Of a stretch of 21,272 nucleotides of DNA, positions 3,260 to 21,272 are shown piece after piece. Source of the stretch: a virus. The position numbers were made by a program, and so were the translations under genes. The DNA is taken from IMG/VR virus record IMGVR_UViG_3300048065_000074, positions 1-21,272 of that record; one strand, given 5' to 3'. The first letter of the stretch is position 1; each line of letters opens with the position of its first letter. The notes below the pieces were generated by a model. The model saw only the letters and a program-made list of their open reading frames with translations. It did no database searches and was not told the DNA's origin.

Positions 3260-6200
3260 ATGGCAGGTTATATAAGACAAAGTACATTCGTAGATGGCGA
3301 TACCATTACTGCTGCATTATTTAACAACGAATATAATCAGTTAGTTAATGCATTTAGTAATACATCAGGTCATAAACACGATGGTACAACAGCAGAAGGA
3401 CCAGTAATAGGTCTGATTGGTGATGCAGGTGAGACATCTCCAAATAATAAAGTATTAATAGACACTACAAATAACTATATAGAATTTTATGTTGAAGTAT
3501 CTTCAGCACCTGTACAACAATTATATATTGCAGATGGAGCTATTATTCCTGTCACAGATAGCGACATTAATTTAGGTACAACAAGTTTAAGATTTAAAGA
3601 TACATATACAGATACTGTTACTACTACCGGTAATGTTAGTATCGGTGGTGATTTAACCGTTACAGGTAGTGCTACTATCTCAGGTAATCTTACTTTTGGC
3701 GATGCAGATACTGATAGTATTAACTTAGCTGCTGAAATTGATTCAGATATTATTCCTAACACTGATGGTACATATGACTTAGGAAGTGCTACAAAAGAAT
3801 GGCAAGACCTTTATATTGACGGTACAGCTAACATAGATAGCCTTGTAGCTGATACAGCAGACATTAACGGTGGTACAATTGATGGTGCTACCATAGCTAC
3901 TTCAGATATAACTGTAGGAGCTGGTAAAACTTTAGACGTTTCATCAGGTACTTTAACTTTAGCAGATGACCAAATCTCTGGTGATAAAGTTGAAGGCGGT
4001 ACAATAGCTGCAACAACTATTACTACATTAACTTCAACAACTGGTAACATTACTAACGTAAATGCTACTACAGTAGATTCTACAAATCTTGAAGTTACAA
4101 ATTTAAAAGCTAAAGACGGTACTTCTGCAGGTTCTATAGCAGATACTACAGGTGTTGTAACACTTGCAAGTTCTGTACTAACTACAACAGATATTAATGG
4201 TGGAACTATTGATGGTGTTACTATTGGTGGTACTAGTGCAGGTGCTGTTACTTTTACAGATTTATCAGATGGTACAATAACTATTGCAGGATTTGCTGAT
4301 GAAGATAATATGGTATCTGATAGTGCTACATTGTTACCAACTCAACAATCTGTAAAAGCTTATGTAGACGCACAAGTCACTGCACAGGACTTAGATTTTC
4401 AAGGCGATACCGGAGGTGCTTTAAGTATTGACCTCGACTCTGAAAGCCTTACAATCGCTGGTGGGACTGGTATTGATACTAGTGGAGCTACTAACACTTT
4501 AACAGTTGCAATAGATTCTACAGTCGCTACACTTACTGGCACACAGACTTTAACAAACAAAACACTTACAAGCCCTGTAATCAATACAGGTGTTTCAGGT
4601 ACAGCTTTCCTTGACGATGATACTTTTGCAACTGCAACAGCTAGTACATTAGCATCTTCAGAGTCTATTAAAGCTTATGTAGATACTACAGTTGCTGCAA
4701 CTAATGAAGTTGTTGAAGATACAACTCCACAACTTGGTGGTGATTTAGCATCTAATGGTAATGACATATTATTTGCTGATAACGACAAAGCAGTCTTTGG
4801 AGCAGGTTCAGACTTAGAAATTTATCACTCAGGTGCTGCTTCTATTATTTCCGATGTAGGTACAGGCAATTTAGTTTTACAAGCAGGAGACTTTAGGCTT
4901 AAAAATTCTGACGGCACAGAAACAATGATTCTTGCTAATGCTGGAAGTCTAGTTCAACTTTATCACGACAACTCAGTTAAACTAGCCACAACCTCAACAG
5001 GCATAGACGTAACAGGAACAGCCACAATGGATGGTTTGACTGTTGATGGTGATGCTACATTATCAGATTCTACAAACTCTACTTTACAATTAAAAGGATT
5101 AGCTACTGCTGGTTCGGCTGGTGATTCAATAGGTAGAATAGATTGGTATGGTTCAGCACCAGCAGGAAATGGTGCAGGAATAAAAGCAGCAATTGAAACT
5201 TCTGCTACTACTACAACTTTAAGAGATTTTGATTTACTATTTAAAACCTCTCAAAATGTTGGTTCAGGTGAACCTACTAATTCTTTAAAAGTAGCAGCAA
5301 GTGGAGACATCTCCTTCTACGAAGATACAGGAACTAGCCAAGCTCTATACTGGGATGCAAGTGCTGAATCGCTTGGAATTGGAACGACTAGCCCTGATGC
5401 TAATTTACATATCTCATCAGCAGGTGGAACTGAGCTACATTTACAAGAAGAAACTGCTGGACAGTCTGCACAAATTAAATTTACAAATCCACAAAATTCA
5501 TTTGTAGTTGGTGCAGATGCAAACCCACAAATATTTTTTATTAATACTGATGGTAATCAAGGTAGTGGTCTTTGTATAGATACAAACCACAATGTTGGAA
5601 TTGGAACGACTAGTCCCGCTACAACTTTAGATGTTGATGGTGGAAGTAATAATCCAACCACTCTTACAGTATCTGGTGTTGCATCAAGAGGTATTGTTTT
5701 AGGAGCTGATGATGCTAATGGTAGAGATAGTGGTAAAGGTGTCATATCTGCACCTGATACAGGCTCACAAGCTGGAATATCTTTCCGTGTTACAGGAACA
5801 ACATCATCTGATGAAGCTATGTTCATTAAATCAGATGGCAATGTTGGAATTGGTACGACTACACCTTCATTTGGTAGTGGTTCAGGATTAGAAATACAAA
5901 GAACAAGTGCTGATGCAACTTTAAGATTAGAGCATACTGGTGCAAATGGATTTGAAATAACAGCACAATCAGGACAGGTTACTTATAATTCCCTTTCTTC
6001 AAAACCTCATGTTTTTGAAATAGCAAATACAGAAAGAATGCGTATTGATGGTGCTACAGGCAATGTTGGAATTTCAACGACTAGTCCTGCAGCCAAGTTA
6101 GAAGTTATACATGGAAATGTATCTCAGGGTAATGGAGTTACTTTTGGTAGAACTGCTAGTCAGTCTTGGGATTTTTGGGGCGATAGTGGTGCAAATGTTT

Positions 6201-7450
6201 TATATTCAAAAGGTAATTTTGCAATTATTGGTACATCAGACAGTCAAGACTTATCGTTCAGAACTAATAATACTGACAGGATGCGTATTGATGGTAATGG
6301 CGATATTGGCATTAATACAATCTCGCCCATTGATGGAAGTAAATTAGATGTAGTTGATACAGACGATATGACTATGAGAGTTAGAAGTACAGGTACCTCA
6401 TCTGCTGCTATTAGATATCAAAATTCTACAACAGGAACTACAACAAGTGATGGTTTATTTGTAGGTATAGATGGAACAACAAATGGTTATGTTTGGAATT
6501 ATGAAAATTTACCTGTTTTGTTTGGAACAAATAACGCTGAAAGAATGCGTATTGACTCATCAGGCAATGTTGGAATTGGCACGAGTAGTCCAGTAGCACC
6601 TTTACATATAGAAGGCAAAGACCAAACTGAGGGTACTGCAAGATTTACGCCACACTCAAACAAAGGAAATGAAAGTTCACATATACACTTTGGCTCAACT
6701 GGTGATTGGTACATAAGGTCAGCAGATACAGCAGGTAAAGTAGTAATAAATGATGGTGGGGGCAACGTTGGAATTGGAACGAGTAGTCCTGCTCAAAAAC
6801 TTCATGTATCAGGTAATGCTTACATAGCTGCTGGTAACTATTTTACTGACTCTACAAGTGGTTATTTCTTTGGTGGTAGTGGTTCTTTTACTAATGGTGT
6901 TTATGGTATTGGTTCTAACAATATGGCTTTCAATGTTAATGGCTCAGAAAGAATGCGTATTGATTCTTCAGGCAACTTGTTGGTGGGTACTGCTTCAAAT
7001 TATGCAACTGGTAATGGTCAAGGTATTCAAGCACAAGCATCATCAAATGCTTGTATTACAGCAAGTAGAACTACTGATGATGGTGCTTGTATGAGATTTT
7101 ATCGTAATACTACTTTGGTTGGAAGCATATCAGTTACATCATCAGCAACAGCCTACAACACATCATCAGATGCAAGATTAAAAAACGTTACAGGCTCTGC
7201 AAGAGGTTTAGAAGTAATCAACGAACTAAACCCTGTAGCCTATAACTGGAAAGAATCAGGACAAGCAGACGAAGGCTTAATAGCTCAAGAAGTAAAAGAG
7301 ATAGTACCAAATGCTGTAACAGGTTCAGAAGAAAAAATGTATCAAATGGATTACAGTAAATTGGTAGTCCACCTTGTAAAAGGAATGAAAGAACAACAAA
7401 CACAGATTGAAGCCTTACAATCTGAAATTAACTTATTAAAAGGAGAATAA
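3260..7450 (+). CDS. Long tail fibre with C-terminal S74 intramolecular chaperone
   Basis: The 1396-residue protein starts MAGYIRQSTFVDGDTITAAL after AGGAG at 3246-3250. The N-terminal part likely attaches to the tail. Residues about 90-330 are repetitive beta-rich segments (DLGSATKEWQDLYIDG, DINGGTIDG twice). From about 700 to 1240 there are eight copies of a GNVGIGTTSP-type repeat, four of them preceded by RMRID. The last 94 residues are a peptidase S74 / intramolecular chaperone domain: Ser1303 and Lys1308 in SSDARLKN fit the Ser-Lys dyad five residues apart known for this family. The closing KEQQTQIEALQSEINLLKGE is a trimeric coiled coil. Cleavage before Ser1303 would release the chaperone after trimer folding. 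The fibre would bind the host receptor. Confidence 0.9.
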   Translation: MAGYIRQSTFVDGDTITAALFNNEYNQLVNAFSNTSGHKHDGTTAEGPVIGLIGDAGETSPNNKVLIDTTNNYIEFYVEVSSAPVQQLYIADGAIIPVTDSDINLGTTSLRFKDTYTDTVTTTGNVSIGGDLTVTGSATISGNLTFGDADTDSINLAAEIDSDIIPNTDGTYDLGSATKEWQDLYIDGTANIDSLVADTADINGGTIDGATIATSDITVGAGKTLDVSSGTLTLADDQISGDKVEGGTIAATTITTLTSTTGNITNVNATTVDSTNLEVTNLKAKDGTSAGSIADTTGVVTLASSVLTTTDINGGTIDGVTIGGTSAGAVTFTDLSDGTITIAGFADEDNMVSDSATLLPTQQSVKAYVDAQVTAQDLDFQGDTGGALSIDLDSESLTIAGGTGIDTSGATNTLTVAIDSTVATLTGTQTLTNKTLTSPVINTGVSGTAFLDDDTFATATASTLASSESIKAYVDTTVAATNEVVEDTTPQLGGDLASNGNDILFADNDKAVFGAGSDLEIYHSGAASIISDVGTGNLVLQAGDFRLKNSDGTETMILANAGSLVQLYHDNSVKLATTSTGIDVTGTATMDGLTVDGDATLSDSTNSTLQLKGLATAGSAGDSIGRIDWYGSAPAGNGAGIKAAIETSATTTTLRDFDLLFKTSQNVGSGEPTNSLKVAASGDISFYEDTGTSQALYWDASAESLGIGTTSPDANLHISSAGGTELHLQEETAGQSAQIKFTNPQNSFVVGADANPQIFFINTDGNQGSGLCIDTNHNVGIGTTSPATTLDVDGGSNNPTTLTVSGVASRGIVLGADDANGRDSGKGVISAPDTGSQAGISFRVTGTTSSDEAMFIKSDGNVGIGTTTPSFGSGSGLEIQRTSADATLRLEHTGANGFEITAQSGQVTYNSLSSKPHVFEIANTERMRIDGATGNVGISTTSPAAKLEVIHGNVSQGNGVTFGRTASQSWDFWGDSGANVLYSKGNFAIIGTSDSQDLSFRTNNTDRMRIDGNGDIGINTISPIDGSKLDVVDTDDMTMRVRSTGTSSAAIRYQNSTTGTTTSDGLFVGIDGTTNGYVWNYENLPVLFGTNNAERMRIDSSGNVGIGTSSPVAPLHIEGKDQTEGTARFTPHSNKGNESSHIHFGSTGDWYIRSADTAGKVVINDGGGNVGIGTSSPAQKLHVSGNAYIAAGNYFTDSTSGYFFGGSGSFTNGVYGIGSNNMAFNVNGSERMRIDSSGNLLVGTASNYATGNGQGIQAQASSNACITASRTTDDGACMRFYRNTTLVGSISVTSSATAYNTSSDARLKNVTGSARGLEVINELNPVAYNWKESGQADEGLIAQEVKEIVPNAVTGSEEKMYQMDYSKLVVHLVKGMKEQQTQIEALQSEINLLKGE
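5373..6786 (+). repeat. Coding repeats GNVGIGT/RMRID in the fibre gene
   Basis: The 19-base string TTGGAATTGGAACGACTAG occurs exactly at 5373-5391 and 5595-5613. Closely related copies begin at 5844, 6066, 6570 and 6768, and a more diverged one lies near 6305. A second string, GAATGCGTATTGA, or its GGATGCGTATTGA variant, precedes four of the repeats (near 6038, 6281, 6543 and 6954). Copies are irregularly spaced and in the same frame. They are known as structural repeats of marine phage fibres, and at DNA level they provide homology for deletion, duplication or exchange. Confidence 0.8.
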
Positions 7451-8066: not shown

Positions 8067-11000
8067 ATGAGTAAAAAGAAAAAAACATATAAGAAAAAAT
8101 ATTATACCGGTGGTAGAGTAGATATGTCTAAAGGTGGTAGAGTAGGTTATCAAAGAGGAGGTCCTAAAAGAAAAAATGACCCTATTGAGTCAAAAGATGT
8201 ATTTGGAAATGTAAGCTCTTCTCAAGCTAAACCTATTGGTGGAAGACTTACTAATGAACAATTAGCTAAAAAATCTCCACAACCAAAAACTCAAACGACT
8301 AATAAAGGACCCAGTTCATCTAAAGCTATTAATAATGAAGCTTCTTTAGATGTATTTGGAAACGTAGGAGGTTCAAATAAAGTTTTACCTACTAACGAAG
8401 AATTATCTGGAAAAAGTTTATCTTCTAATCAAGATTTAACTAACGAACAAATAGCTAAAAGACCTACTAAGCCTTTGCCTAAAGCGAAAACAACTCAAGC
8501 TAAAAAACCTATTCAAACTGTTACACGTAAAAAACCAACAACAGGTAAAGGCTCTGACCAAATGTTTATTGGTAGAGAAGGTGATGTAAGACCTCAAACT
8601 AAACAAGCTGCTGAAGCTAAAACTACTGGAGCTAAAACTGAAACTCGTGAAACATGGTGGAGTAATGCAGGATATAATACTCCTCAAGATGCAATAGCTG
8701 ATGGTTGGAAGTATGACCCTAATTCAAGAACATGGACTCCGGGTGGTGGTACAACTACAGGTGGTGGTACAACTACAGGTGGTGGTACAACTACAGGTGG
8801 TGGCACAACTACAGGTGATACAACTACAACAACTACTGAAGCACCTATAACAGGAACACCAAAACAAATAGAAGAAGAAAGACGTAAAAGAGGTGTTCAA
8901 GCTGGTAGAACTGCAGAACAAATAGCTGCTGGAGAAATACCAGAGGGAATGGTACCGTCTGCAGAAGCTGTTAAAATTATGGAACGTAGACCTGATGAAA
9001 CTCAGGAACAATACGAAGCTAGAATGGCTAGTATGGAAGCTGAAGCAGTTCAAATAGAACCCGGTACTGCATTAGAAGCAGAACCTGTAGCTGCTGCACC
9101 AAGCGAAGTGGTAACTACTATACAAGCAAAAACTGGTAAAACTCCAGAAGAAATAGAAACTGCTTTAGTTACTGCTGCAAAAATTACAGAAAATCCTGAA
9201 GTACAAGCTGCAATAGGAGAGTTATCTCCAGATTCTATTGCCAAGCTTGAAGAAATTAGAGAATTATCAGGACCTGCAGTAGCTGCTGAAATATCAGAAA
9301 AAGTTGCTAACGCTGCAAAAGCTGAAGATATAACTGGTGTTTTATCGTCTGGTGCTTTTGTTCCAGAAGTTACAGCAGTTAATGTTCAAGTATCAGAAAC
9401 TCCAGATGCTGAAGTACAAACTAGAGAAGCTATTACAGGAGAAGCTACTAGCGGAGAAGCTGCACAAATTATAGGTCAAGTAGGTTATGAAGCTGCTAAA
9501 CAAAGAGCAGTAAAAGGAACTGCAGCAAAAGGTGCTGCTGCTAATATGATTGCACAGACTGGAGATTTACCTCCTGAAATATCTGCTGCTATTGTAGAAG
9601 ACCCCGCAACAGTTGAAGCTCAAATAGATGCAGAACCTGTAGAAGTTCAAGCTGCTGTTGCTGCATTACCACAAGAAGCTCTAGTATCTTCACAAATTGA
9701 AAGTTTATTAGGTGGTATGGAAGACGGTGAAGTTCCTATGTGGGCTAAACCTGCTGTAGATAAAGTTAATGCTATGTTAGCTCAAAGAGGCATGTCAGCT
9801 TCTACAGTTGGTAGAGATGCTTTATTTAACTCTATTATTCAAAGTGCTTTACCAATTGCACAAAGTAATGCTACAGCTTTACAAGCTAGAGCAGCTCAAA
9901 ACTTAAGTAACGAACAACAAGCAAATATAGAACAATCTCGTCAAGATATGCAAAGACGTATGTCTAATCTTGCTAATAGACAAACTGCTGAAAGTCAGAC
10001 TGCACAATTTGCTCAACAGATGGGAGTAATGCAAAGTCAATTTAGACAAGATGCTGTAATGACAACTGCTCAACAACAACAGCAAATGAGAATGCAAAAC
10101 TTGCAAAATCAACAACAAGCTGCTGTAGTTAATGTTCAAAATGAACAACAAACGAACATGCAGAATCTTGCTAATGAGCAACAAGTAAATATGGCAGAGC
10201 TTCAAATAGAAGCACAAGTTGAAGGAGCTAATCAATCTGCAGAAAATCAAAGACGTATATTAGAGATGCAAACTGCAGCAGACTTCTTAGCTAAAAACGC
10301 TGCATTTAAACAAGACATGGAAAAAGCTAATCTTAGTGCTGAAATGCAGATGAGATTTGCTAATTTATCAGCTCTTAATCAAGCTAGTTCAGAAAATCTT
10401 AGTGCTGCTCAACAGACAGAACTTGCAAACATGAATAAAGATTTGCAAACTAGATTACTTCAAGGAAAGATTGCAGAGTCTATGGGTATAGCCCAACTTA
10501 ATGTTGACCAAGCAAGAGCTATACAGAATGCTTCTACAGTTGCTAATATGGACATGGCAAACTTTAATGCTGACCAACAAAGAGTAATGGCTGATAGTAA
10601 GTTTATGCAGACTGTTACTCTTTCAAACTTTAATGCTGAACAACAAGCAATTATGCAAAATGCTACAGCTATGGCTTCGTTAGATTTAGCTACTGCTGAC
10701 CAAAGAACTAAGTTAGCTATAACAAATGCTCAAAGCTTTTTAAAGATGGACATGGCTAATTTATCTAATCAGCAACAAACAAATATATTAAAAGCACAAC
10801 AAGAGCAGCAAAGATTATTAAATAATCAGTCTGCTGAAAATGTAGCAAGACAAATTAATGCTCAAAGTGAAAATCAAACTAATCAGTTTATGGCTAGTTT
10901 AGCTCAACAAATGGAACAATTTAATATTGGTCAAATGAATACTGCACAAACTTTTAATGCTCAATCAAAGAATGCTGCTGCTGCCAGAGATGCTGATAGA

Positions 11001-11405
11001 GTTGCAGATGTTAATAAAGCTAATGCTATGATATTAAATGATGTTAATAAATTTAATGCACAATTAGATTTTAATAGAAGTCAATGGAATGCTGCTAACC
11101 AACAAGCTATAATTAATTCAAATATTAGTTGGAGAAGAGATGCTAATAGAATTGATACAGCTACTGAGAACGCAATTAATTCTCAAAATGTACAAAATGC
11201 TTTTGGATTAACTTCATCAGCTTTATCATTTATTTGGAATGAGTTAGCTGACCAAGCAACAAAAGATTTTACTGCTGGTGAAAATGCTGCTACTAGAAAA
11301 CTACAAGCTATGGTAGCTGCTGCTAGTTCTGAAGGCGATGCTGCTAAACACTGGTCAACTAATTTTAATAATGCTTCATCTACTATAGATAGAATATTTG
11401 GATAA
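8067..11405 (+). CDS. Giant repeat-rich internal virion protein candidate (1112 aa)
   Basis: Four regions can be seen. Residues 1-40 are strongly basic with GG motifs (YYTGGRVDMSKGG). Residues 41-250 are low-complexity, with two DVFGNV copies, three TNEQ/TNEE copies and four exact GGGTTT units at 226-249. Residues about 260-600 are Ala/Glu/Val-rich and helical, and include WAKPAVDKVNAMLAQRGMS. Residues 601-1051 are 41 consecutive 11-residue units rich in Asn, Gln, Ala and Met. The last 60 residues hold FIWNELADQ and end STIDRIFG. Position after the tail genes and before other large virion genes fits an internal core or ejection protein, or a tape-measure-like helical protein. No catalytic motif is visible. 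The ATG is preceded by a weak TAGG at 8055-8058. Confidence 0.7.
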   Translation: MSKKKKTYKKKYYTGGRVDMSKGGRVGYQRGGPKRKNDPIESKDVFGNVSSSQAKPIGGRLTNEQLAKKSPQPKTQTTNKGPSSSKAINNEASLDVFGNVGGSNKVLPTNEELSGKSLSSNQDLTNEQIAKRPTKPLPKAKTTQAKKPIQTVTRKKPTTGKGSDQMFIGREGDVRPQTKQAAEAKTTGAKTETRETWWSNAGYNTPQDAIADGWKYDPNSRTWTPGGGTTTGGGTTTGGGTTTGGGTTTGDTTTTTTEAPITGTPKQIEEERRKRGVQAGRTAEQIAAGEIPEGMVPSAEAVKIMERRPDETQEQYEARMASMEAEAVQIEPGTALEAEPVAAAPSEVVTTIQAKTGKTPEEIETALVTAAKITENPEVQAAIGELSPDSIAKLEEIRELSGPAVAAEISEKVANAAKAEDITGVLSSGAFVPEVTAVNVQVSETPDAEVQTREAITGEATSGEAAQIIGQVGYEAAKQRAVKGTAAKGAAANMIAQTGDLPPEISAAIVEDPATVEAQIDAEPVEVQAAVAALPQEALVSSQIESLLGGMEDGEVPMWAKPAVDKVNAMLAQRGMSASTVGRDALFNSIIQSALPIAQSNATALQARAAQNLSNEQQANIEQSRQDMQRRMSNLANRQTAESQTAQFAQQMGVMQSQFRQDAVMTTAQQQQQMRMQNLQNQQQAAVVNVQNEQQTNMQNLANEQQVNMAELQIEAQVEGANQSAENQRRILEMQTAADFLAKNAAFKQDMEKANLSAEMQMRFANLSALNQASSENLSAAQQTELANMNKDLQTRLLQGKIAESMGIAQLNVDQARAIQNASTVANMDMANFNADQQRVMADSKFMQTVTLSNFNAEQQAIMQNATAMASLDLATADQRTKLAITNAQSFLKMDMANLSNQQQTNILKAQQEQQRLLNNQSAENVARQINAQSENQTNQFMASLAQQMEQFNIGQMNTAQTFNAQSKNAAAARDADRVADVNKANAMILNDVNKFNAQLDFNRSQWNAANQQAIINSNISWRRDANRIDTATENAINSQNVQNAFGLTSSALSFIWNELADQATKDFTAGENAATRKLQAMVAAASSEGDAAKHWSTNFNNASSTIDRIFG
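8742..8813 (+). repeat. Four tandem 18-bp repeats encoding GGGTTT
   Basis: The unit GGTGGTGGTACAACTACA occurs four times head to tail: 8742-8759, 8760-8777, 8778-8795 and 8796-8813, the last with one T-to-C change. It is in frame with the 1112-residue gene and is followed by a shortened unit and a run of Thr codons. It likely forms a flexible linker between the N-terminal basic part and the helical body. Near-identical units suggest recent expansion by slippage, so copy number may vary between relatives. Confidence 0.9.
9867..11219 (+). repeat. 41 uninterrupted 33-bp (11-residue) coding repeats
   Basis: Reading residues 601-1051 of the 1112-residue protein in blocks of eleven keeps register with no insertion or deletion: NATALQARAAQ, NLSNEQQANIE, QSRQDMQRRMS, NLANRQTAESQ, and so on to NVQNAFGLTSS. 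By hand, 27 of 41 blocks begin with Asn; the rest mostly begin with Gln, Asp, Glu or Thr. Position 2 is mostly Leu/Ala/Phe, position 6-7 often Gln, position 10 mostly Met/Ile/Leu/Val in the first 28 blocks. Hydrophobic spacing 4-4-3 fits a hendecad helix. DNA units are diverged, so this is an old, protein-level repeat. Confidence 0.9.
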
Positions 11406-11422: not shown

Positions 11423-12457
11423 ATGGGATGGTTAAGAAAAAAAGCTAAACAACTTGTAAAAGGTGTAAAAAAAGTATTTAAAAAAGTAGGCAAAGCTTTT
11501 GGAAAACTTGGAGTTTTTGGACAAATAGGAATGATGCTTCTTATGCCCACTTTTAGTGGAGCTTTAGGAAGTTTTTTTGGAAAAGCCGGAAAGTTAGCCG
11601 AATGGTCTTCTACTCTTTTAAGTAAATCTGGAATAGGTGCTAAAGCTTTAGGTCATGGTTTAAACATGGTAAATAAAGCTGCTACTTTTGCTGGTAAAGT
11701 TTATACTACAGTTACAGAAGGAATTAGTAATGGTTTAGATAGAGTTACTAACTTTGCAAAAGGTAAAGGATTTAAACTAAGTGAAGGAAAAACTTCTATA
11801 TTTGCAAAAGATGTAGCAACTCCTAAAGCTCCAGAAAGTTTAACTAAGGTATTAGAAGCTGAGAAACCTTTTGATATTACTACAGCAACTCCTGAAGATT
11901 TAAGAAACTTTTTTGAACAAAGTTATCAAGAAGCAATTACTCCTAAAATTAAACCATCAGAAATTGTAGAAGGTTTAACAGATGTTTCTGATTTTACAAA
12001 ACCATTAGATGTAAGTTTACTAACTAAACCTAAAGATGTACCATTTATGGACACAATTAAAGGCATACCGGGAGAAATTAAAAAAGGTATTCAAGAATTT
12101 GACATTAAAGAATCTGTCACTACTGGATTAGAAGAAGGTGCTATAGCTGGTATTTATAAAGCAACAGGACAAAAAGTTGCAAAAGCTGCTGGTTATGAAA
12201 CTGAAGCACCTACATATAATTTTATTGACACTGGTAATGTTATAGATAATTTATTAGTTAGACCTAAATCTTATCAAAATATGAATTATTCATTACAACA
12301 ACAAGGTAATAATTTTAATCTTGATAATATTTTAAATTCTAACGCTTTAAACAGTTTAGTAGAAAGAGAAAATGCAGAATATCAAAACTTTATGTCAAAT
12401 TTTTCAATTAATCAAATAATAGAGTCAGATGACTTTATAGCACAAGGAAATGCATAA
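11423..12457 (+). CDS. Membrane-active internal virion protein candidate (344 aa)
   Basis: The ATG at 11423 follows a strong AAAGGAG at 11407-11413. Residues 4-29 form a cationic amphipathic helix with heptad-like Lys/Val/Phe spacing (LVKGVKKVFKKVGKAFGKLG), directly followed by a hydrophobic stretch at about 30-53 (IGMMLLMPTFSGALGSFFG). The middle is Ala/Gly-rich and helical; the last third is acidic and Asn-rich, ending in DFIAQGNA. A basic amphipathic start joined to a hydrophobic helix fits a protein that inserts into the host membrane during DNA ejection. This is inference from composition and from its place among the large virion genes; I recognise no enzyme motif. Its stop overlaps the next start by one base (TAATG). 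Confidence 0.65.
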   Translation: MGWLRKKAKQLVKGVKKVFKKVGKAFGKLGVFGQIGMMLLMPTFSGALGSFFGKAGKLAEWSSTLLSKSGIGAKALGHGLNMVNKAATFAGKVYTTVTEGISNGLDRVTNFAKGKGFKLSEGKTSIFAKDVATPKAPESLTKVLEAEKPFDITTATPEDLRNFFEQSYQEAITPKIKPSEIVEGLTDVSDFTKPLDVSLLTKPKDVPFMDTIKGIPGEIKKGIQEFDIKESVTTGLEEGAIAGIYKATGQKVAKAAGYETEAPTYNFIDTGNVIDNLLVRPKSYQNMNYSLQQQGNNFNLDNILNSNALNSLVERENAEYQNFMSNFSINQIIESDDFIAQGNA

Positions 12458-13050
12458 TGGAAGAATATAATCAAGAAGCAGTAGATGCATTTGCAAACGC
12501 AGCTAGACCTATACCGGGAGAATCTTTAACAGATAATCCTGATGAACCTAGACCTTTTAAAAGACCTCCAGAGTTTACAAACTTTAAAAAGGCTTTAGAG
12601 TTTACTGCAGTTGAATTAATGCAAGAAGAAAACTATATGCCTTTAATGGCTGCTATAGGTGAAGGAGTTCCAATATTAGATTTAACAACTCAAATAGGCT
12701 ATGTAGGTTTTAGAGAAGGTAAATGGAATCCTGATTTAATGTTAATGTTAATAGAACCTATTATGTATTTATTAATGGCTTTAGCTGAAAAAGCTGGTAT
12801 AGATTATAGAATAGATAGTGAAGATGATATTGACGAAGATGAAGATTCTTTATTTGAAGAAAGAACACAAAATATTGCAAATACTATAAAGAAAAAAATA
12901 GAAGATGGTAAAACAATACCTGCTGGTGCTTTACCTAAAGATATTATGGAAGAAATAGAACAACTAGAAATGCCTAGTTTGTTATCAAAACCAGAAACAG
13001 AAGAAATGGTAGAAGAACCAACAAGTTTATTACAACAACAAGGAAGTTAA
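12457..13050 (+). CDS. Conserved acidic phage protein, unknown function (197 aa)
   Basis: The 197-residue protein has an N-terminal block ARPIPGESLTDNPDEPRPF (residues 16-34) and PPEFTNFKKALEF. A helical core follows, containing GFREGKWNPDLMLMLIEP (84-101) and a hydrophobic helix to about residue 110. An Asp/Glu tract comes next (118-136), and the protein ends SLLQQQGS. I recognise the PIPG-SLT...PPEF...GKWNPDLM pattern as recurring in marine phage genomes next to virion genes, without a known function. The hydrophobic part could pack in an oligomer rather than cross a membrane. Translation is coupled by TAATG to the 344-residue gene upstream. A small chaperone or assembly partner for the neighbouring internal proteins is possible but not shown. 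Confidence 0.7.
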   Translation: MEEYNQEAVDAFANAARPIPGESLTDNPDEPRPFKRPPEFTNFKKALEFTAVELMQEENYMPLMAAIGEGVPILDLTTQIGYVGFREGKWNPDLMLMLIEPIMYLLMALAEKAGIDYRIDSEDDIDEDEDSLFEERTQNIANTIKKKIEDGKTIPAGALPKDIMEEIEQLEMPSLLSKPETEEMVEEPTSLLQQQGS

Positions 13051-13051
13051 A

Positions 13052-14629
13052 ATGTCAAAGTATTATAATTACGAAGGTCAAGTTGAGTTTGCTCAAAAAC
13101 AATTTGATGCAGCTAGAGAATATAAACAAACTCAAGCTGATAAATATAATAATCTAACTAAAAAACTTTTAACATTTGATGCAGGTTTTAGTTTAATTAA
13201 TCCATTAATAAATAATGCAGCTGAAGAAATGGATGCTAGACAATTACCTAAAAAAGCAGCTTATCAAAATTTATTAGATAGAAGTACAAGTATTAGAAAT
13301 GATGAAGCAGCTAGAGTACAAGCAGGAACAAGTGTTATTGATTTTTTAGAAAATAAATACTTTACACAATTAGATTCACAAGCTGCTACAGATTATGGAT
13401 ATTTAAGTCCTGTTCAATATAGAAAAGCTTTAAGAGAAGAAGCTAGAAGAATGGCTGTAGAAAACGCACCCGAATACAAACAAGTAGTAGCTTCAGCAAG
13501 TAATATACCTGATTTTAAAGATTTTGATAACTATTATAAAAATGCCGCAGATACACCTAGAAATCTTGCAGAGTGGGCAGGTAAACAAGTTAAAAGATTT
13601 TTTGTTAAAGAAAATGAAGAAACTTTAAAAATAAAAAATGAAAGAGCTGATGATGCTTTATACGGTACTGCACTGTTTGATAATTTTGGAGAATTTGCTA
13701 CTTCATTAAAAACTTATGAAACTGTTTCAGGTCAAGGAATAGATGCTGCTAAAATTATAGAAGGATTAGAATTAAAAACTGGTGGAGCTTTAAAACAGTT
13801 TACAAAAGAATTAACTCCTATTACTAGAGAAGATGAAACAAAAGGTATAAAAATAACAGAATATAGAACTGCTATTGCGACTGCTAGACCAGACGGTACC
13901 CCAGAATATTTACCTGAAAATATTCATACTGTTTTTAAAACTGTAAATATAACAAATTCAAATCGTATGGATGATGCTGACATAAATTCTTTATATAAAA
14001 TGACAGATAATAAATATGATAATACAATTGCAGACATTTTAAGTAATCCGGATGGAGGAAGACCTACATTTGAACAAGGACAAAAAGCACGAGAATTTTT
14101 AGCTAATAATCCAAAAGCTTATGCTATTAATTGGTCTGATGAAAAAGCTAAATTAGATTCTTTTCCTGAATGGTATTCAATTCAAATTAAATATGAAAGA
14201 GACCCCACGAGTGGAAAACGTATAGCTCAAGAAGTTGGAGTTGGTACTGGTGTTTATGAAATAAAAGAAGACTATAGAGATGTAGCAGAAAAATTAGGTT
14301 TAGATGAACCTACTATGTTATCTAGATATAATAATTTAGGAGCTACTATAGCAGGTCCTGCAATGTCTGTTTCAGAAATAGATACACAAGGTAAACAAGA
14401 TTTTATAACTTTATTAAAAGACCCACAAAGTAAAAAAGCTTATCAAGAATTATTAGAAAATCAAGACTCTGATTTATATGATTTACTAAACCAAAGAAAA
14501 ATAGAAAATTCAGAAACAGATATAGTTCCTTTAGGTATTTGGGATTTAGAAGTTGTTTTTCCTAACTTAAACATTACAGGAAAAAAACAAATTTTTTGGG
14601 ATAGAATAAATAATCAATTAATGTATTAG
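13052..14629 (+). CDS. Probable virion structural protein (525 aa), unknown family
   Basis: The 525-residue protein starts one base after the previous stop, with AAGGA at 13040-13043 as ribosome binding site. The N-terminus is helical (YEGQVEFAQKQFDAAREYK), and a long helix-rich segment with many Lys/Glu/Tyr runs to about residue 200. A mixed region then includes TVSGQGIDAAKIIEGLELK, and YNNLGATIAGPAMSVSEIDT lies near residue 425-445. No signal peptide, membrane segment or catalytic motif is visible. It ends at TAG 14627-14629, overlapping the ribosome binding site of the 1424-residue gene. Sandwiched between large internal-type proteins, it is most likely another internal or ejected virion protein. 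I do not recognise a family. Confidence 0.65.
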   Translation: MSKYYNYEGQVEFAQKQFDAAREYKQTQADKYNNLTKKLLTFDAGFSLINPLINNAAEEMDARQLPKKAAYQNLLDRSTSIRNDEAARVQAGTSVIDFLENKYFTQLDSQAATDYGYLSPVQYRKALREEARRMAVENAPEYKQVVASASNIPDFKDFDNYYKNAADTPRNLAEWAGKQVKRFFVKENEETLKIKNERADDALYGTALFDNFGEFATSLKTYETVSGQGIDAAKIIEGLELKTGGALKQFTKELTPITREDETKGIKITEYRTAIATARPDGTPEYLPENIHTVFKTVNITNSNRMDDADINSLYKMTDNKYDNTIADILSNPDGGRPTFEQGQKAREFLANNPKAYAINWSDEKAKLDSFPEWYSIQIKYERDPTSGKRIAQEVGVGTGVYEIKEDYRDVAEKLGLDEPTMLSRYNNLGATIAGPAMSVSEIDTQGKQDFITLLKDPQSKKAYQELLENQDSDLYDLLNQRKIENSETDIVPLGIWDLEVVFPNLNITGKKQIFWDRINNQLMY

Positions 14630-14641: not shown

Positions 14642-17600
14642 GTGGCAAGACCTTTTTCATACATAGATGATAGAACTGAAACTATCAGAAACACTATAAA
14701 TCCTTTATATAAATTAACTAAAAAAGAAGCAATTGAATATGCCGTAGGTATGGGAGCTTCTGATTCTCTTAGAGGTATAGCTCAAGTATTTGGTAAAGGT
14801 GGAGAGTTTTTTGGATGGGATGGTTTAACAAATAGTCTTAAAGAAAAAGATGAGAAACTTAGAGCTATTTTAGAACACCCTGAATATGGAAAAGAAGCTA
14901 ACGCAGCTTTTCTAGGTTCTGCTATTGTAGCTGACCCAGTAAGTTATCTTCCTATTGTAGGTTGGATTCAAAAAGGTAAAAAAGCTAAAAACTTAAAAGA
15001 CCTTGCAATTTATGGAGGAGCTAGTGGAGCTGCTGTATCTGCTATAGGATATACTCCAGAAGAACAAAGAGGTTTAATAGTTGGTGAAGATGCTAATTTA
15101 TTTCAAAGACGTTTAGAAAACGCAGCAATTGGAGGTACTGCTGGTGCTGTTATAGGTAGTGCAGGTGGAGCAGTTGTTGATTTAATTCAAAAAGCTAGAG
15201 GTAAAGGTAGTATTTTTCAAGGCATTGATGAAATAGAACCTAAAAAGTTTGATGATGACATTGTAGATGAAGATGAATTAGCTAAACCAATAATTAAAGG
15301 TTCTTTAGTACGTGCTAATGATAGAAAAAATATAGGTACTGTTATTGATTTAGATGAAGATAAAGGAATAGCTACCGTAAGATTTACTAATAAAGAAAAA
15401 GGCACAACAGCTACTAAAAGATTTACTATAGATGATTTACAACCTCCAAAACCGGGACAACAACGTAAAAGTAAAGTAACTCTTGAAGAAGAAGTTGCAG
15501 AAAAACCTAAAGATATTATTTTTGTTATTGATAGAAAAACAAATAAAGGTAATCCAATTTATAAAACTACTAATCCTAGTAATAAAACTACTTATAGTAT
15601 ACAAAAAGCAGTTGATGAACAAGGTAATATAATTCCTAAACAATGGGAAGTTACAACTGTACCTTTTTTAAGAGGAAGAAAAAAAGGTGAAAGTATTTCT
15701 GATTTTAATAGAAGAAAAAAACAATTAACCGAAATAAATGTATTTGGAAGTCTTCAAGATTCTCAAAGATTTGTTAAAAATAAAATAAAACCAGATGAGG
15801 CAGTAATTGTTCCTAATCAAAATGCTTTTGGTAAAAATGTAGCAGATGAATTAGACAAACCTGTTGACCAAAAATATACTTTAAAAAATCCAGTATTAAA
15901 AGTTTATCAAGATATGGTAGGCACTCCTTTAAAAAATCTTATGTTTAATAATCCGGGTGAAAGTTTTTCAGCTGTAGCTGGTTACGGATTTGGTTTTAAT
16001 GCAATAGATGACCCAGATGCTACCTATGCACAAAAAGTAGCAGCAGGACTTACAGGAGCTGCTATAGGTGCTGGTGGAGTTAATAAAATTAAAAATATTA
16101 AAGTAGGTGATGAATATATTGGTGAAATTTTTGGAAGAAAACTAATAAGTGATTATGGTTTAAAACCTGAATACTTAAATTTAAGACAAGCTTATAGAAC
16201 TAATAAAAATGAAATAGGTATGGAATTTGCTGAATTAGCTGAAAGAGCTAGTAAAGAATTAAACCCAGAACAAAATAAATTATTATACGGTTTATTAAAC
16301 GGAGATTTAGCTACTATAGAAAAATTAGAGCCAGAAGCTTTAGCATTAAATACGGAGACTAGAGGAATACTAATTAAATACGGACAAGAATTAGTAGACA
16401 GAGGTTTATTAAGTGAAAAAGTATTTAAGAAAAATATAGATACTTATATTAAAAGAACTTATTTAAAACCTAAAAAGTCTGATAACAAAACAACATATGA
16501 AAATAGTAAACAAATTAGACTTATCGGAGATGAATTAAAACCAAGAGGTAAGATTGAAACTATTACTTTAAAAGCTTTTAACAATCCTAAAAACAATTGG
16601 AAGAAAGAAGGTTGGGAAATTTTAGAAGAATTAAAAGGTGGTAAAGTTAAAGTAAGAAGACAGTATACAAAACAAGAAAGAAAAGATTTAGAAGAAGTTG
16701 AAAATGCTTCATATGCTATAGCAGAAACAGGAAGATTATTTGCAAACGATATAGCTAGTGCTAGATTCTTTGATGATTTATCTAAGAATAAAAAGTTTGT
16801 ATTAGACGAAGCAGATTGGAAAACATTAACTCCAAGCGAACAATTACGTTTTGAAATTATGCCAAGTAGTAGAGTTAAAGATACTAAAAAATTAAAGTAT
16901 GGTGAACTTAGCGGTAAATATGTAGACAAAGATGTTCTTAAAGATATAAAACACATGTATGGTTTTAGTAATGTTGATAAAGCTAGAGAATACTTAAAAG
17001 TATTTGATAGATTACAAACAATTTGGAAAAAAACTAAAACTGCTTGGAGTCCTTCAACTCACGTAGGTAATACTGCTTCTAACGTAATGTTATTAGATTT
17101 TGCTGATACTAAATTTAATTATGTTGTAAAAGGAATTAAGGAAATGAGAAATCCTAATTCTACATTACATAGACAAGCAAAAATAGATGGTATATTTGAT
17201 GTTGATTTAGTAAGTAGAGAATTAAAAGATTCTTTAACTGAAGTGGAAAAAGGTTTATTAAAAATTCAAAACGAACAAAGTTTTGGTTTAGGAGTTTTTG
17301 GTAAAACAGGTGATAGTATTAAAAACTTTGCTAAGTGGACTCCAGAAAAAATGGAAAAATATTATCAACTTGAAGACCAAATATTCAGAATGGGTGTTTA
17401 TATGGACAGACTTGATAAAGGTTTTTCAAGGTCTGAAGCAGCTTTAGAAGCACGTAAATGGTTTATTGATTATGATATTAATGCTCCGTTTATACAAGGA
17501 TTAAAAAGAACTGCAGTACCTTTTATAAGTTATACCTATAGAGTAATACCTTTGTTAGCTGAATCAGCAGCTCTTAGACCTCATAAGTTTGCTAAATGGG

Positions 17601-18916
17601 CTGCATTAGGTTATGGTATGAACGAAGGTTTTACATATTTAGCTGATGATAAATATGGAGAAGATATAGATAGATTGACAGTTAGAGATTCTTATAATAA
17701 AAAATTATTTGGAGGTGTTCCAATTGTCGGGGATGCTATGCCTTATACAAATATTAGACTTCCAGTAGACGATAAAAATGGTAATGCTTTATATTTTGAT
17801 GCAAGTCGTTGGATTCCCGGTGGAGATATTTTTGAAGGTAGAGAGGGTCCTGTAGGTTTTCCGGGGCTACCAGCTACTTTACAGCCCGGTGGTTTGTATG
17901 TAGATTTAATATCTAATGTATTTTTTAAAGTAGACCCTTTTACAGGACAAAACTTAGAAGATATGGGAGTTGATACAGAAAGCACTGGAGCAATATTAAA
18001 GCATTACGGTAAAGGTCAGATACCTAATATACCCGGATTACCAGAAACTTTTGCTACGAAAAAAATACAAAGAGCTAGAAGAGTTGAGGCAGGTGAGGAT
18101 GTAGGTGAATTAATACCCGGTTCTCAATATGTAACTAAAGATACTCCTTTCTTAGCACTAGCTTATGGTTTTGGTTTTAGGGTAAGACCACAAGACGCAA
18201 GGGTTAATAAGAAAGTAAGAGAATCAAATTATTTAAGAGAAAGAAGCAATATACAAAGTAAAATAAAAAAAGCAGAAAAAGATGTTAAAAACGGTAACTT
18301 AACTGCAAAACAAAAAGATAAAAAAATAATAGAACTTGAATCTGAACTTATAACTTTAAATGCTGAATACGAATTATACATAGCAAAACTTCAAGAGCTT
18401 GAAGACAAGTTAAGTGCTGAAGGCTTAAGAAAATTTGAACAAAGAAAAAGAAAAGTTGAAGGCGGAATAATAGAGGGTGAAGACGTACCATACACTAAAG
18501 AAAACCCAGCAGATAGAGTTGACCCTTTTACAGGACAACCTTACTCTGAGCAAGTAGATAGATTAGGTTTATCTGATGGAGGTAATACAACACCATTATT
18601 TGAGGATAGAATAAAAAATCCAAATAAATATCCTTATCTTAAAAAAAATAAAAACTTAGTAACACATAGAATGGCTGATTCTGATAATATGGTATATCCT
18701 TTAGTTCAGTTACAATCTGATGGAACTTTAAAAGATTATGGTAATGATTTTGAAACAGCTAGAAAAGAAGCTATAAAAAATAATAATTTTAAAACATTCA
18801 AAACTAAAGAAGAAGCTAGAGCATATGCTCAAGGTGGTTATAAAACTGAAGAATTTAAAAAGTATTACAAAAATCAGATGAAAGAATTAGGATTAGATGT
18901 TTTTCAAAAGGAATAA
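14642..18916 (+). CDS. Very large internal/ejection protein candidate (1424 aa), GTG start
   Basis: Translation starts at GTG. Residues 121-137 and 161-182 are Gly/Ala-rich hydrophobic helices (NAAIGGTAGAVIGSAGGAVV), of glycine-zipper type; a similar one lies at 463-480. Residues about 219-266 look like a small SH3/KOW-like beta barrel (GSLVRANDRKNIGTVIDLDE). Residues 801-814 (AWSPSTHVGNTASN) and 905-970 (LEDQIFRMGVYMDRLDKGFS, then VPFISYTYRVIPLL) match patterns that recur in giant phage 'polyvalent' or ejected proteins. Residues about 1200-1260 form a charged coiled coil, and DPFTGQ occurs twice. No protease, transglycosylase or polymerase motif was seen. The likely role is entry into the host with the DNA, comparable in place to T7 gp16. 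Function is inferred. Confidence 0.7.
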   Translation: MARPFSYIDDRTETIRNTINPLYKLTKKEAIEYAVGMGASDSLRGIAQVFGKGGEFFGWDGLTNSLKEKDEKLRAILEHPEYGKEANAAFLGSAIVADPVSYLPIVGWIQKGKKAKNLKDLAIYGGASGAAVSAIGYTPEEQRGLIVGEDANLFQRRLENAAIGGTAGAVIGSAGGAVVDLIQKARGKGSIFQGIDEIEPKKFDDDIVDEDELAKPIIKGSLVRANDRKNIGTVIDLDEDKGIATVRFTNKEKGTTATKRFTIDDLQPPKPGQQRKSKVTLEEEVAEKPKDIIFVIDRKTNKGNPIYKTTNPSNKTTYSIQKAVDEQGNIIPKQWEVTTVPFLRGRKKGESISDFNRRKKQLTEINVFGSLQDSQRFVKNKIKPDEAVIVPNQNAFGKNVADELDKPVDQKYTLKNPVLKVYQDMVGTPLKNLMFNNPGESFSAVAGYGFGFNAIDDPDATYAQKVAAGLTGAAIGAGGVNKIKNIKVGDEYIGEIFGRKLISDYGLKPEYLNLRQAYRTNKNEIGMEFAELAERASKELNPEQNKLLYGLLNGDLATIEKLEPEALALNTETRGILIKYGQELVDRGLLSEKVFKKNIDTYIKRTYLKPKKSDNKTTYENSKQIRLIGDELKPRGKIETITLKAFNNPKNNWKKEGWEILEELKGGKVKVRRQYTKQERKDLEEVENASYAIAETGRLFANDIASARFFDDLSKNKKFVLDEADWKTLTPSEQLRFEIMPSSRVKDTKKLKYGELSGKYVDKDVLKDIKHMYGFSNVDKAREYLKVFDRLQTIWKKTKTAWSPSTHVGNTASNVMLLDFADTKFNYVVKGIKEMRNPNSTLHRQAKIDGIFDVDLVSRELKDSLTEVEKGLLKIQNEQSFGLGVFGKTGDSIKNFAKWTPEKMEKYYQLEDQIFRMGVYMDRLDKGFSRSEAALEARKWFIDYDINAPFIQGLKRTAVPFISYTYRVIPLLAESAALRPHKFAKWAALGYGMNEGFTYLADDKYGEDIDRLTVRDSYNKKLFGGVPIVGDAMPYTNIRLPVDDKNGNALYFDASRWIPGGDIFEGREGPVGFPGLPATLQPGGLYVDLISNVFFKVDPFTGQNLEDMGVDTESTGAILKHYGKGQIPNIPGLPETFATKKIQRARRVEAGEDVGELIPGSQYVTKDTPFLALAYGFGFRVRPQDARVNKKVRESNYLRERSNIQSKIKKAEKDVKNGNLTAKQKDKKIIELESELITLNAEYELYIAKLQELEDKLSAEGLRKFEQRKRKVEGGIIEGEDVPYTKENPADRVDPFTGQPYSEQVDRLGLSDGGNTTPLFEDRIKNPNKYPYLKKNKNLVTHRMADSDNMVYPLVQLQSDGTLKDYGNDFETARKEAIKNNNFKTFKTKEEARAYAQGGYKTEEFKKYYKNQMKELGLDVFQKE
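18906..18912 (+). promoter_or_regulatory. Ribosome binding site that selects the endolysin start
   Basis: AAAAGGA at 18906-18912 lies 8 bases before ATG 18921. The earlier in-frame ATG at 18897 lies upstream of this site, inside the 1424-residue gene, and would add MFFKRNNK, which is unrelated to the enzyme fold. The site therefore supports 18921. Confidence 0.75.
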
Positions 18917-20195: not shown

Positions 20196-20265
20196 ATTAG
20201 AATTACCTATTATAAGTATCTTTATATTTTTATTTATAATAAGTGTATTAGAGCAACTACAATGA
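20176..20265 (+). CDS. Candidate 29-residue membrane peptide coupled to csgF
   Basis: A short frame from ATG 20176 to TGA 20263-20265 encodes a peptide with a basic start (MIKEKIKLELP) and one hydrophobic segment (IISIFIFLFIISVL). It starts inside the upstream gene in another frame and ends in an ATGA overlap with the csgF start at 20262, a classic coupling junction. The ribosome binding site is weak (AAGAG at 20171-20175). It fills the only sizeable gap in the block (20196-20261). csgF has no good binding site of its own, which makes a coupled leader peptide plausible. AT-rich DNA easily encodes hydrophobic runs, so it may also be chance. Confidence 0.4.
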   Translation: MIKEKIKLELPIISIFIFLFIISVLEQLQ

Positions 20266-20825
20266 AGATAGACGATAAGAAAATATTACAAGTAGTTAAT
20301 CTTTCTCCAAGTGAATCTTGGATAGAAAAAATTGTAAACATACATCCGATGAAACAAATTACTGTAGCTTCTATAGTACAGATATTAGTATTTGGATTTA
20401 TGTTGTTAGCTTTCTGGACTAACTCTAAACTTTTTGCAGACGAAGTAGTATTTAAATTTAAAAGTCCTAGCTTTAGTGGTATTGGTACATCATCACACTA
20501 TCTTACAATCCAGAACCAAGAGTTTAACAGAAAGGAAGCATTGAAAGCAGAGATTAAGGCACTTCAAGACCAAATAGAAAGAGACAAAGAGAATACAACA
20601 CTTGCAAGATTTATAAGAAATTTAGAGTCTAGAATATATGCACAATTATCTAGACAGTTAGTAGAAAATTTATTTGGTGAGACTCCAAGTGATAATGGCG
20701 TACTAGAATTAGAGGGCAACCGAATAGAATATAGTGTTGTCGATGGAATAATAACTTTAAAAATAACAGACAGCGATGGTAATACAACGACTATTTCTTT
20801 GCCTATTGGTAGCTTTACTTTCTAG
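20262..20825 (+). CDS. csgF: CsgF-like curli assembly/secretion accessory protein
   Basis: CsgF docks in the outer-membrane CsgG channel and in curli systems helps place the nucleator outside the cell. Residues 30-59 look like a Sec signal (MKQITVASIVQILVFGFMLL, ending KLFA), with predicted cleavage before Asp60. The mature start then reads DEVVFKFKSPSFSG, which matches E. coli mature CsgF position by position at Phe5, Phe7, Pro10, Phe12 and Gly14. A helical middle includes RFIRNLESRIYAQLSRQLVE and a FGE turn. The C-terminal domain (NRIEYSVVDGIITLKITDSD, then TTTISLPIGSF) resembles the CsgF beta domain. The 29 residues before Met30 are unusual; a start at 20349 would remove them but has no clear binding site. 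It is longer than E. coli CsgF (138 residues). The last 50 bases overlap csgG. Confidence 0.85.
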   Translation: MKIDDKKILQVVNLSPSESWIEKIVNIHPMKQITVASIVQILVFGFMLLAFWTNSKLFADEVVFKFKSPSFSGIGTSSHYLTIQNQEFNRKEALKAEIKALQDQIERDKENTTLARFIRNLESRIYAQLSRQLVENLFGETPSDNGVLELEGNRIEYSVVDGIITLKITDSDGNTTTISLPIGSFTF

Positions 20826-21272
20826 TTGTGCAGTATTAAATAAGAATCAAGACTTAGTATTAACACAAGATATAAAGCCTAGTTCTACATTAGACTTACA
20901 ATCAGAAGAATTAAAAAACTTACCAAGTGCAAAAGTAAGACCAACTATAGCTATATACCCTAATAGCTTTAGAGATTTAACAGGTCAACGTAGAAGTAAT
21001 AGTTCGTTTGCTTTGTTTAGTACAGCTATTACACAAGCTCCTGAAGCATTTTTAATTAGAGCTTTTAAACATGCAGCAGGTGGTGAATTTTTTAGAGTAG
21101 TAGAACGTGTAGGTTTAGATGACCTAACAAAAGAAAGACAACTAATTAGGTCTACTCGTAAAGAATTTAAAGAAGATAATAAAATGCAACCACTGCTTTT
21201 TGCAGGGTTATTGGTTCAGGGAGGAGTTGTTAGCTATGAGGCTAACCTCAAATCTGGAGGTGCTGGTGCTAG
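20776..21272 (+). CDS. csgG: CsgG-like outer-membrane curli secretion channel lipoprotein (3' end outside window)
   Basis: CsgG forms a nine-subunit outer-membrane pore. The frame starts at ATG 20776, inside csgF; it is the only ATG after the in-frame stop at 20764. The product opens MVIQRLFLCLLVALLSSC, a lipoprotein signal with lipobox LSSC at Cys18, followed by Ala rather than Asp, consistent with outer-membrane sorting. E. coli CsgG has a very similar start (MQRLFLLVAVMLLSGC). Further matches are IAIYPNSFRDLTGQ, FSTAITQ, FFRVVERVGLDDLTKERQLI and LLVQGGVVSYEANLKSGGAG, ending at the GGxGAR motif. 165 codons are present; about 100 are expected beyond the window. The stretch aligned with the E. 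coli constriction (Tyr51, Asn55, Phe56) keeps Phe but has Leu for Asn. Confidence 0.92.
   Translation, partial: MVIQRLFLCLLVALLSSCAVLNKNQDLVLTQDIKPSSTLDLQSEELKNLPSAKVRPTIAIYPNSFRDLTGQRRSNSSFALFSTAITQAPEAFLIRAFKHAAGGEFFRVVERVGLDDLTKERQLIRSTRKEFKEDNKMQPLLFAGLLVQGGVVSYEANLKSGGAGA

Follow-up and report, generated by a model that had tools for sequence, protein, structure and literature searches.

Throughout a family of podophage proteins built around a long array of 11-residue repeats, the array changes in length by whole repeats, with its two ends fixed and its register kept in all but one of the relatives. This modulo-11 rule is the strongest result of the present analysis and was invisible to the sequence-only reading that preceded it, which had only the window, here meaning the whole stretch of 21,272 nucleotides under analysis (IMG/VR virus record IMGVR_UViG_3300048065_000074). 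For the family member encoded in the window, the reading we lean towards, tentatively and at somewhat under an even chance, is that of a virion-borne protein of the ejection set whose C-terminal half forms one long helical hendecad array, with copies lying side by side as a rod or tube.

The hendecad array of the window protein

The open reading frame at 8067..11405 (+ strand, as are the parts of this gene and the block genes given below) encodes a protein of 1112 amino acids that belongs to no Pfam or PHROG family and whose homologues are unannotated or carry annotations without a function. Residues 1-554 (8067..9728) form a variable, low-complexity N-terminal part rich in Thr, Gly, Ala and Glu, the length of which is not quantised in relatives. 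A basic segment and GGRV repeats (YTGGRVDMSKGGRVGYQRGG) are seen at its very start (window 8067-8170). Next comes an N anchor conserved among relatives (residues 555-603, 9729..9875; P.WA...RG.S.S....A...(I/M).SALPIAQ.NA), then the unbroken hendecad array (residues 597-1046, 9855..11204) and a C anchor, likewise conserved (residues 1021-1105, 11127..11381; SN..WRR..N...TA..N...NA...SFLW..L.D).

The sequence-only reading had described 41 consecutive, in-phase blocks of 11 residues over 451 residues, starting at residue 601 (codon at 9867) and ending at 11219, and this array is real. Identity at lags of 11, 22, 33, 44 and 55 residues lies 8.4, 9.2, 7.6, 8.1 and 5.2 standard deviations above that of shuffled sequence (2000 shuffles), so the peak at 11 residues that the reading had offered as a check is present, and identity is flat at the lags adjoining the multiples of 11. 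A phase-tracking hidden Markov model (HMM) recovers the array as a single segment, residues 597-1046, with no phase jumps and a score of 237, where shuffled sequences reach -1 at most; its boundaries fall within one to two blocks of those first proposed. A recount of Asn at block position 1 returned the same figure, 27 of 41, and the protein runs for up to 516 residues without a Pro. The proposed 4-4-3 hydrophobic spacing captures only part of the pattern: the hydrophobicity peaks, at roughly 20-fold, fall at 4/11 and 5/11, and at 3/11 there is no significant one (p 0.16). The 11-residue periodicity resides in the first and second codon positions, and where two residues 11 apart are identical, they use the same codon no more often than expected (56 observed, 58.3 expected). 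The repeat is therefore old and maintained by selection at the protein level, and a recent tandem duplication of DNA is ruled out as its origin by the codon count.

Searches of Pfam, PHROG, PDB sequences and, by Foldseek, PDB structures gave no informative match for the array protein and no similarity to a solved fold, while BFVD returned three matches at E below 1e-3, all without an assigned function and presumably homologues. In an AlphaFold2 monomer model, the window region is predicted as all helix (pLDDT 54.8, pTM 0.35), with the middle of the array broken into helical units of about 22 residues at pLDDT of about 60-84. In a model of a short homologue (pLDDT 59.6), strands are absent and the main helices measure 41 to 174 residues. 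The helix breaks differ in position between the two models, and at this low confidence both may be trusted only as "helical". A 22-residue helical solenoid, which the first model had brought up as a candidate, was absent from the model of the short homologue and was rejected.

Register, composition and growth across relatives

Searches recovered homologues from 36 IMG/VR loci, 27 phage records and many further loci, none of them with an assigned function. The phage records include HMO-2011, HTVC033P/103P/104P/115P, Roseobacter CRP phages, CHOED, MQM1, Slicky01, phiM6 and Rhizobium phages; HMO-2011-type short-tailed marine phages are very common. Anchors around SALPIAQ.NA (N) and SN..WRR (C) are common to the homologues, and the window protein has both anchors with an unbroken hendecad array, as in the HMO-2011-type array protein family. 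Anchor-to-anchor distances were read first by regular expression, where 34 of 34 were congruent modulo 11, as were members read by hand, and subsequently with an HMM for 202 unique proteins, a set of distinct sequences from HMO-2011-type and related podophages. Across these 202 the distance takes 22 distinct values from 143 to 858 residues (418 in the window protein), of which 21 are congruent modulo 11; 201 of the homologues conform, the window protein included. The probability that at least 20 of the 21 other lengths would fall in register at random is about 3e-20. As a control, the lengths of the N-terminal part (153 distinct) and the C-terminal part (36 distinct) cover all residues modulo 11. 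The lone array out of register, L127:3056-, departs by +7 residues (a heptad) or -4, and it is the sole exception to the finding that insertions breaking the register, which the sequence-only reading had suggested looking for in relatives, are essentially absent.

At least 21 length changes have occurred within the array, and a parsimony count over a rough tree built from the non-array parts puts the number at 44. Gain or loss of whole blocks between fixed end caps would be a requirement of an in-register helical assembly, and the block-wise length change, fixed caps and strict register together favour such an assembly. The sixfold variation in length, in 11-residue steps, suggests a modular rod or tube. 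The hendecad helix proposed from the window is thus well supported by the register in the relatives, the absence of Pro and the low-confidence all-helix predictions.

Pro is essentially absent over the 201 arrays, the 858-residue class being the only one among the tabulated length classes to average above zero, and Cys is absent altogether. Asn and Gln make up 31% of residues in these arrays and Ala 17%, while Lys and Arg account for about 6-7% and the net charge is mildly negative. Asn occupies hendecad position 1 in 67% of cases, positions 6 and 7 are mostly Gln or Asn, and amides are thus concentrated at positions 1, 6, 7 and, less so, 3; the most hydrophobic positions are 2, 10 and 8. On an ideal hendecad wheel, the window array displays two hydrophobic strips. 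This two-face pattern genuinely holds for the window array and for the long arrays, while several shorter arrays are one-faced. A helical barrel, considered on the strength of the two faces, failed its controls: the pattern is missing from phiX174 H, which forms a tube, and strongly present in P22 gp26, a trimer. Since the pattern, on these controls, does not separate barrels from trimers, the barrel was withdrawn.

Long arrays have a further level of repetition. In those of 528-858 residues, identity is raised at lags of 5 and 10 hendecads (0.24-0.31 versus about 0.20), and the consensus of the 55-residue unit reads NLTAEQQ.RLa / nLQtlvqr..r / nAqL.QQMd.A / NLSn.QQvELA / NL.EkNaAd.A. In the window, one copy resembling this five-hendecad unit was matched to the consensus by eye at residues 722-776 (10230..10394). 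The longest arrays carry the 55/110-residue super-repeat and lengthen in steps of 110 residues; a ladder of 308+110k holds 71 of the 80 homologues with arrays of at least 297 residues.

The downstream gene block and known ejection systems

Four genes follow the array gene. The second gene of the block (11423..12457) encodes 344 amino acids with a basic N terminus and a hydrophobic segment; the third (12457..13050; 197 amino acids) is the most conserved of the four, and the fourth (13052..14629) encodes 525 amino acids. The fifth gene (14642..18916) encodes 1424 amino acids, of which residues 83-182 are weakly similar to residues 325-408 of T7 gp16 (BLAST E 1e-4 within a set of 19 proteins; E 0.016 for phrog_342). 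In Slicky01, the protein at the corresponding place matches PHROG virion structural proteins (E 2e-18). As far as the contigs of relatives reach, and with some small genes inserted, the order of array gene, 70-430, 160-240, 365-930 and 800-1570 amino acids is kept in relatives with short arrays and in those with the longest. In HTVC115P, a gene annotated as a toxin-activating lysine-acyltransferase (L044:5186-5635) directly follows the array gene, ahead of the rest of the block.

The window also encodes an SU10-type adaptor (PF24175). A 1396-residue tail fibre upstream (3260-7450) carries an S74 domain at its C terminus and numerous GNVGIGT(S/T)SP-like repeats. Towards the end of the window lie adjacent homologues of CsgF (20262-20825, Pfam E 3.7e-17) and CsgG (20776-21270, E 1.5e-19, cut by the window end), which are components of the curli secretion pore.

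By synteny with known podophage ejection sets, the five genes opened by the array gene look like an ejection block: the array gene keeps its place as the first gene of a block that ends in a very large protein. The comparison draws on the ejection sets of T7 and P22 (PMC8954989) and on SU10, whose ejection proteins leave the virion (PMC9509320). T7 gp14-16, P22 gp7/20/16 and SU10 gp20-24 are likewise multi-gene blocks with a very large last protein, and SU10 gp20-24 (260/350/322/551/1473 amino acids) comes nearest to the window block in gene sizes and order. Unlike the window protein, none of the T7, P22 or SU10 ejection proteins has an 11-residue array, and hhalign found no significant match of the array protein to gp14/gp7, gp20 or SU10 gp21-23. 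SU10 gp21/22, which are also Asn/Gln-rich with long Pro-free stretches, had been considered as candidate homologues and were set aside on this result.

A functional analogue is proposed in phiX174 H, a decameric tube that spans the cell wall, with hendecads and a lumen lined by Asn, Gln and Arg (PMC7354561). Like the array, H has an Asn/Gln-rich alpha-helical segment with hendecads and lag-11 periodicity; in a reference set of 19 ejection and tail proteins, only H (z 4.0) and T7 gp17 have such periodicity. The window array has amide-rich faces, but the hydrophobic-face diagnostic of a tube failed its controls. However, H consists of three hendecads followed by eleven heptads, whereas the array family has 13-78 hendecads, and the two-face hydrophobic pattern of the window array is missing in H. 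A single hhalign comparison gave no significant homology (E 0.057), and the array protein is not a member of the H family. HMO-2011 gp25, HTVC104P gp61, CRP-1 gp35 and CHOED gp13 are true homologues, which share both anchors and the register and have no annotated function; arrays in the homologues of cultured phages are 143-330 residues long, versus 418 in the window. A literature search for virion proteomics of relatives and for hendecad proteins in double-stranded DNA phages found nothing on the array-protein family.

A proposed rod or tube for genome delivery and its rivals

From the register and the gene order, we tentatively infer an oligomer carried in the virion, where the array protein would itself be a virion protein, and engaged in ejection as a conduit for DNA. 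The array itself is probably helical, judging from the models. Several copies would pack side by side and in register as a rod or tube, which would extend through the host envelope as DNA leaves the short tail. The helical tunnel and role in ejection that had been put forward from the window are plausible in light of the gene order. Against this stands the lack of sequence homology between the array protein and any known ejection protein tested or solved structure. In addition, the longest arrays, 858 residues, would, as a single straight helix, reach about 129 nm. The Gram-negative envelope is thinner than this, so such arrays would have to fold or overlap. A more specific version is a trans-envelope helical conduit with fixed caps and staves of about 21 to 129 nm, growing in 11-residue steps, with 110-residue units added in some lineages, and tuned to the envelope or surface layers of the host; in all these particulars it seems quite unlikely.

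The main rival is a trimeric coiled-coil tail rod. It could be a needle of the P22 gp26 kind or an appendage shaft, and the variable N-terminal part would anchor or decorate it. Needles of the gp26 type are long helical rods of variable length encoded near the same operon position, and the two-face pattern of the gp26 trimer resembles that of the array and is even stronger; with a lag-11 z of 0.2, however, gp26 has no 11-residue periodicity, and no HMM relation was found between the array protein and gp26, a gp26-like profile or SU10 gp18. The array gene comes after the tail fibre gene, yet it opens an ejection-type block and does not lie within the fibre region. S74 chaperone-type domains are typical of trimeric tail fibres, and the homologue in CRP-3 (L049:3323-5182) ends in a Peptidase_S74-type domain (Pfam E 6.7e-6), as does, by motif match, that in CRP-738 (L053:2597-5011). 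Another extra C-terminal motif, a segment starting CWVARE(V/I)Y, occurs in HMO-2011 (L038:8951-11071) and at L208. Neither motif is present in 198 of the 202 homologues, and Pfam detects no C-terminal S74 domain in the window protein. MQM1, which carries a homologue, was described as having typical podophage morphology, with a tail measured at 9.2 nm (PMC10410586), although its array would be some 27 nm long. A needle or fibre is an unlikely reading, if still a serious contender. It is distinctly doubtful that the array protein is instead a compact component of the internal core or a DNA-organising head protein, its helices folded back and never forming a long rod. A straight helix of 64-129 nm would hardly fit the roughly 55-70 nm of a podophage head, and the 22-residue units in the model of the window array also speak for this reading. 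The short homologue, however, is predicted with helices of 41-174 residues, the 55-residue super-repeat contains an odd number of hendecads and so breaks a 22-residue alternation, and monomer predictions of oligomeric helices are prone to artificial collapse.

Two further proposals of the sequence-only reading fared less well. Quantised length between fixed end caps is what would be expected of a measuring rod, and a ruler in which the repeat count follows head size had been suggested. Array length instead decreases with increasing genome length (rho -0.69 across 42 genomes or contigs no shorter than 45 kb, a sample of related and hence non-independent sequences in which some contigs are possibly incomplete), which removes the head ruler. 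A ruler of head or tail size is very improbable; phages with short tails offer no long tail to measure. As for a tape measure of the siphophage or myophage kind, whose length would scale with the tail, the relatives are described as short-tailed. Least probable of all is an amphipathic helix that binds membranes. Synuclein, perilipin and apolipoproteins also contain helical repeats of 11 residues, but the single hydrophobic face along the helix that marks the synuclein and perilipin type was not found in the window array (one-face moment z 0.0), and the array is Asn/Gln-rich, poor in Lys and Arg and net negative, which counts against the lipid-binding helix first proposed.

Whatever function the protein proves to have, the modulo-11 rule is a strong and testable structural constraint on it. 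If the array protein is a delivery conduit, the family would provide a natural series of helical assemblies graded in length, from 13 to 78 hendecads between the same caps, and with it a direct test of conduit or rod length against the host envelope. It would also serve as a model for uninterrupted hendecad assembly.
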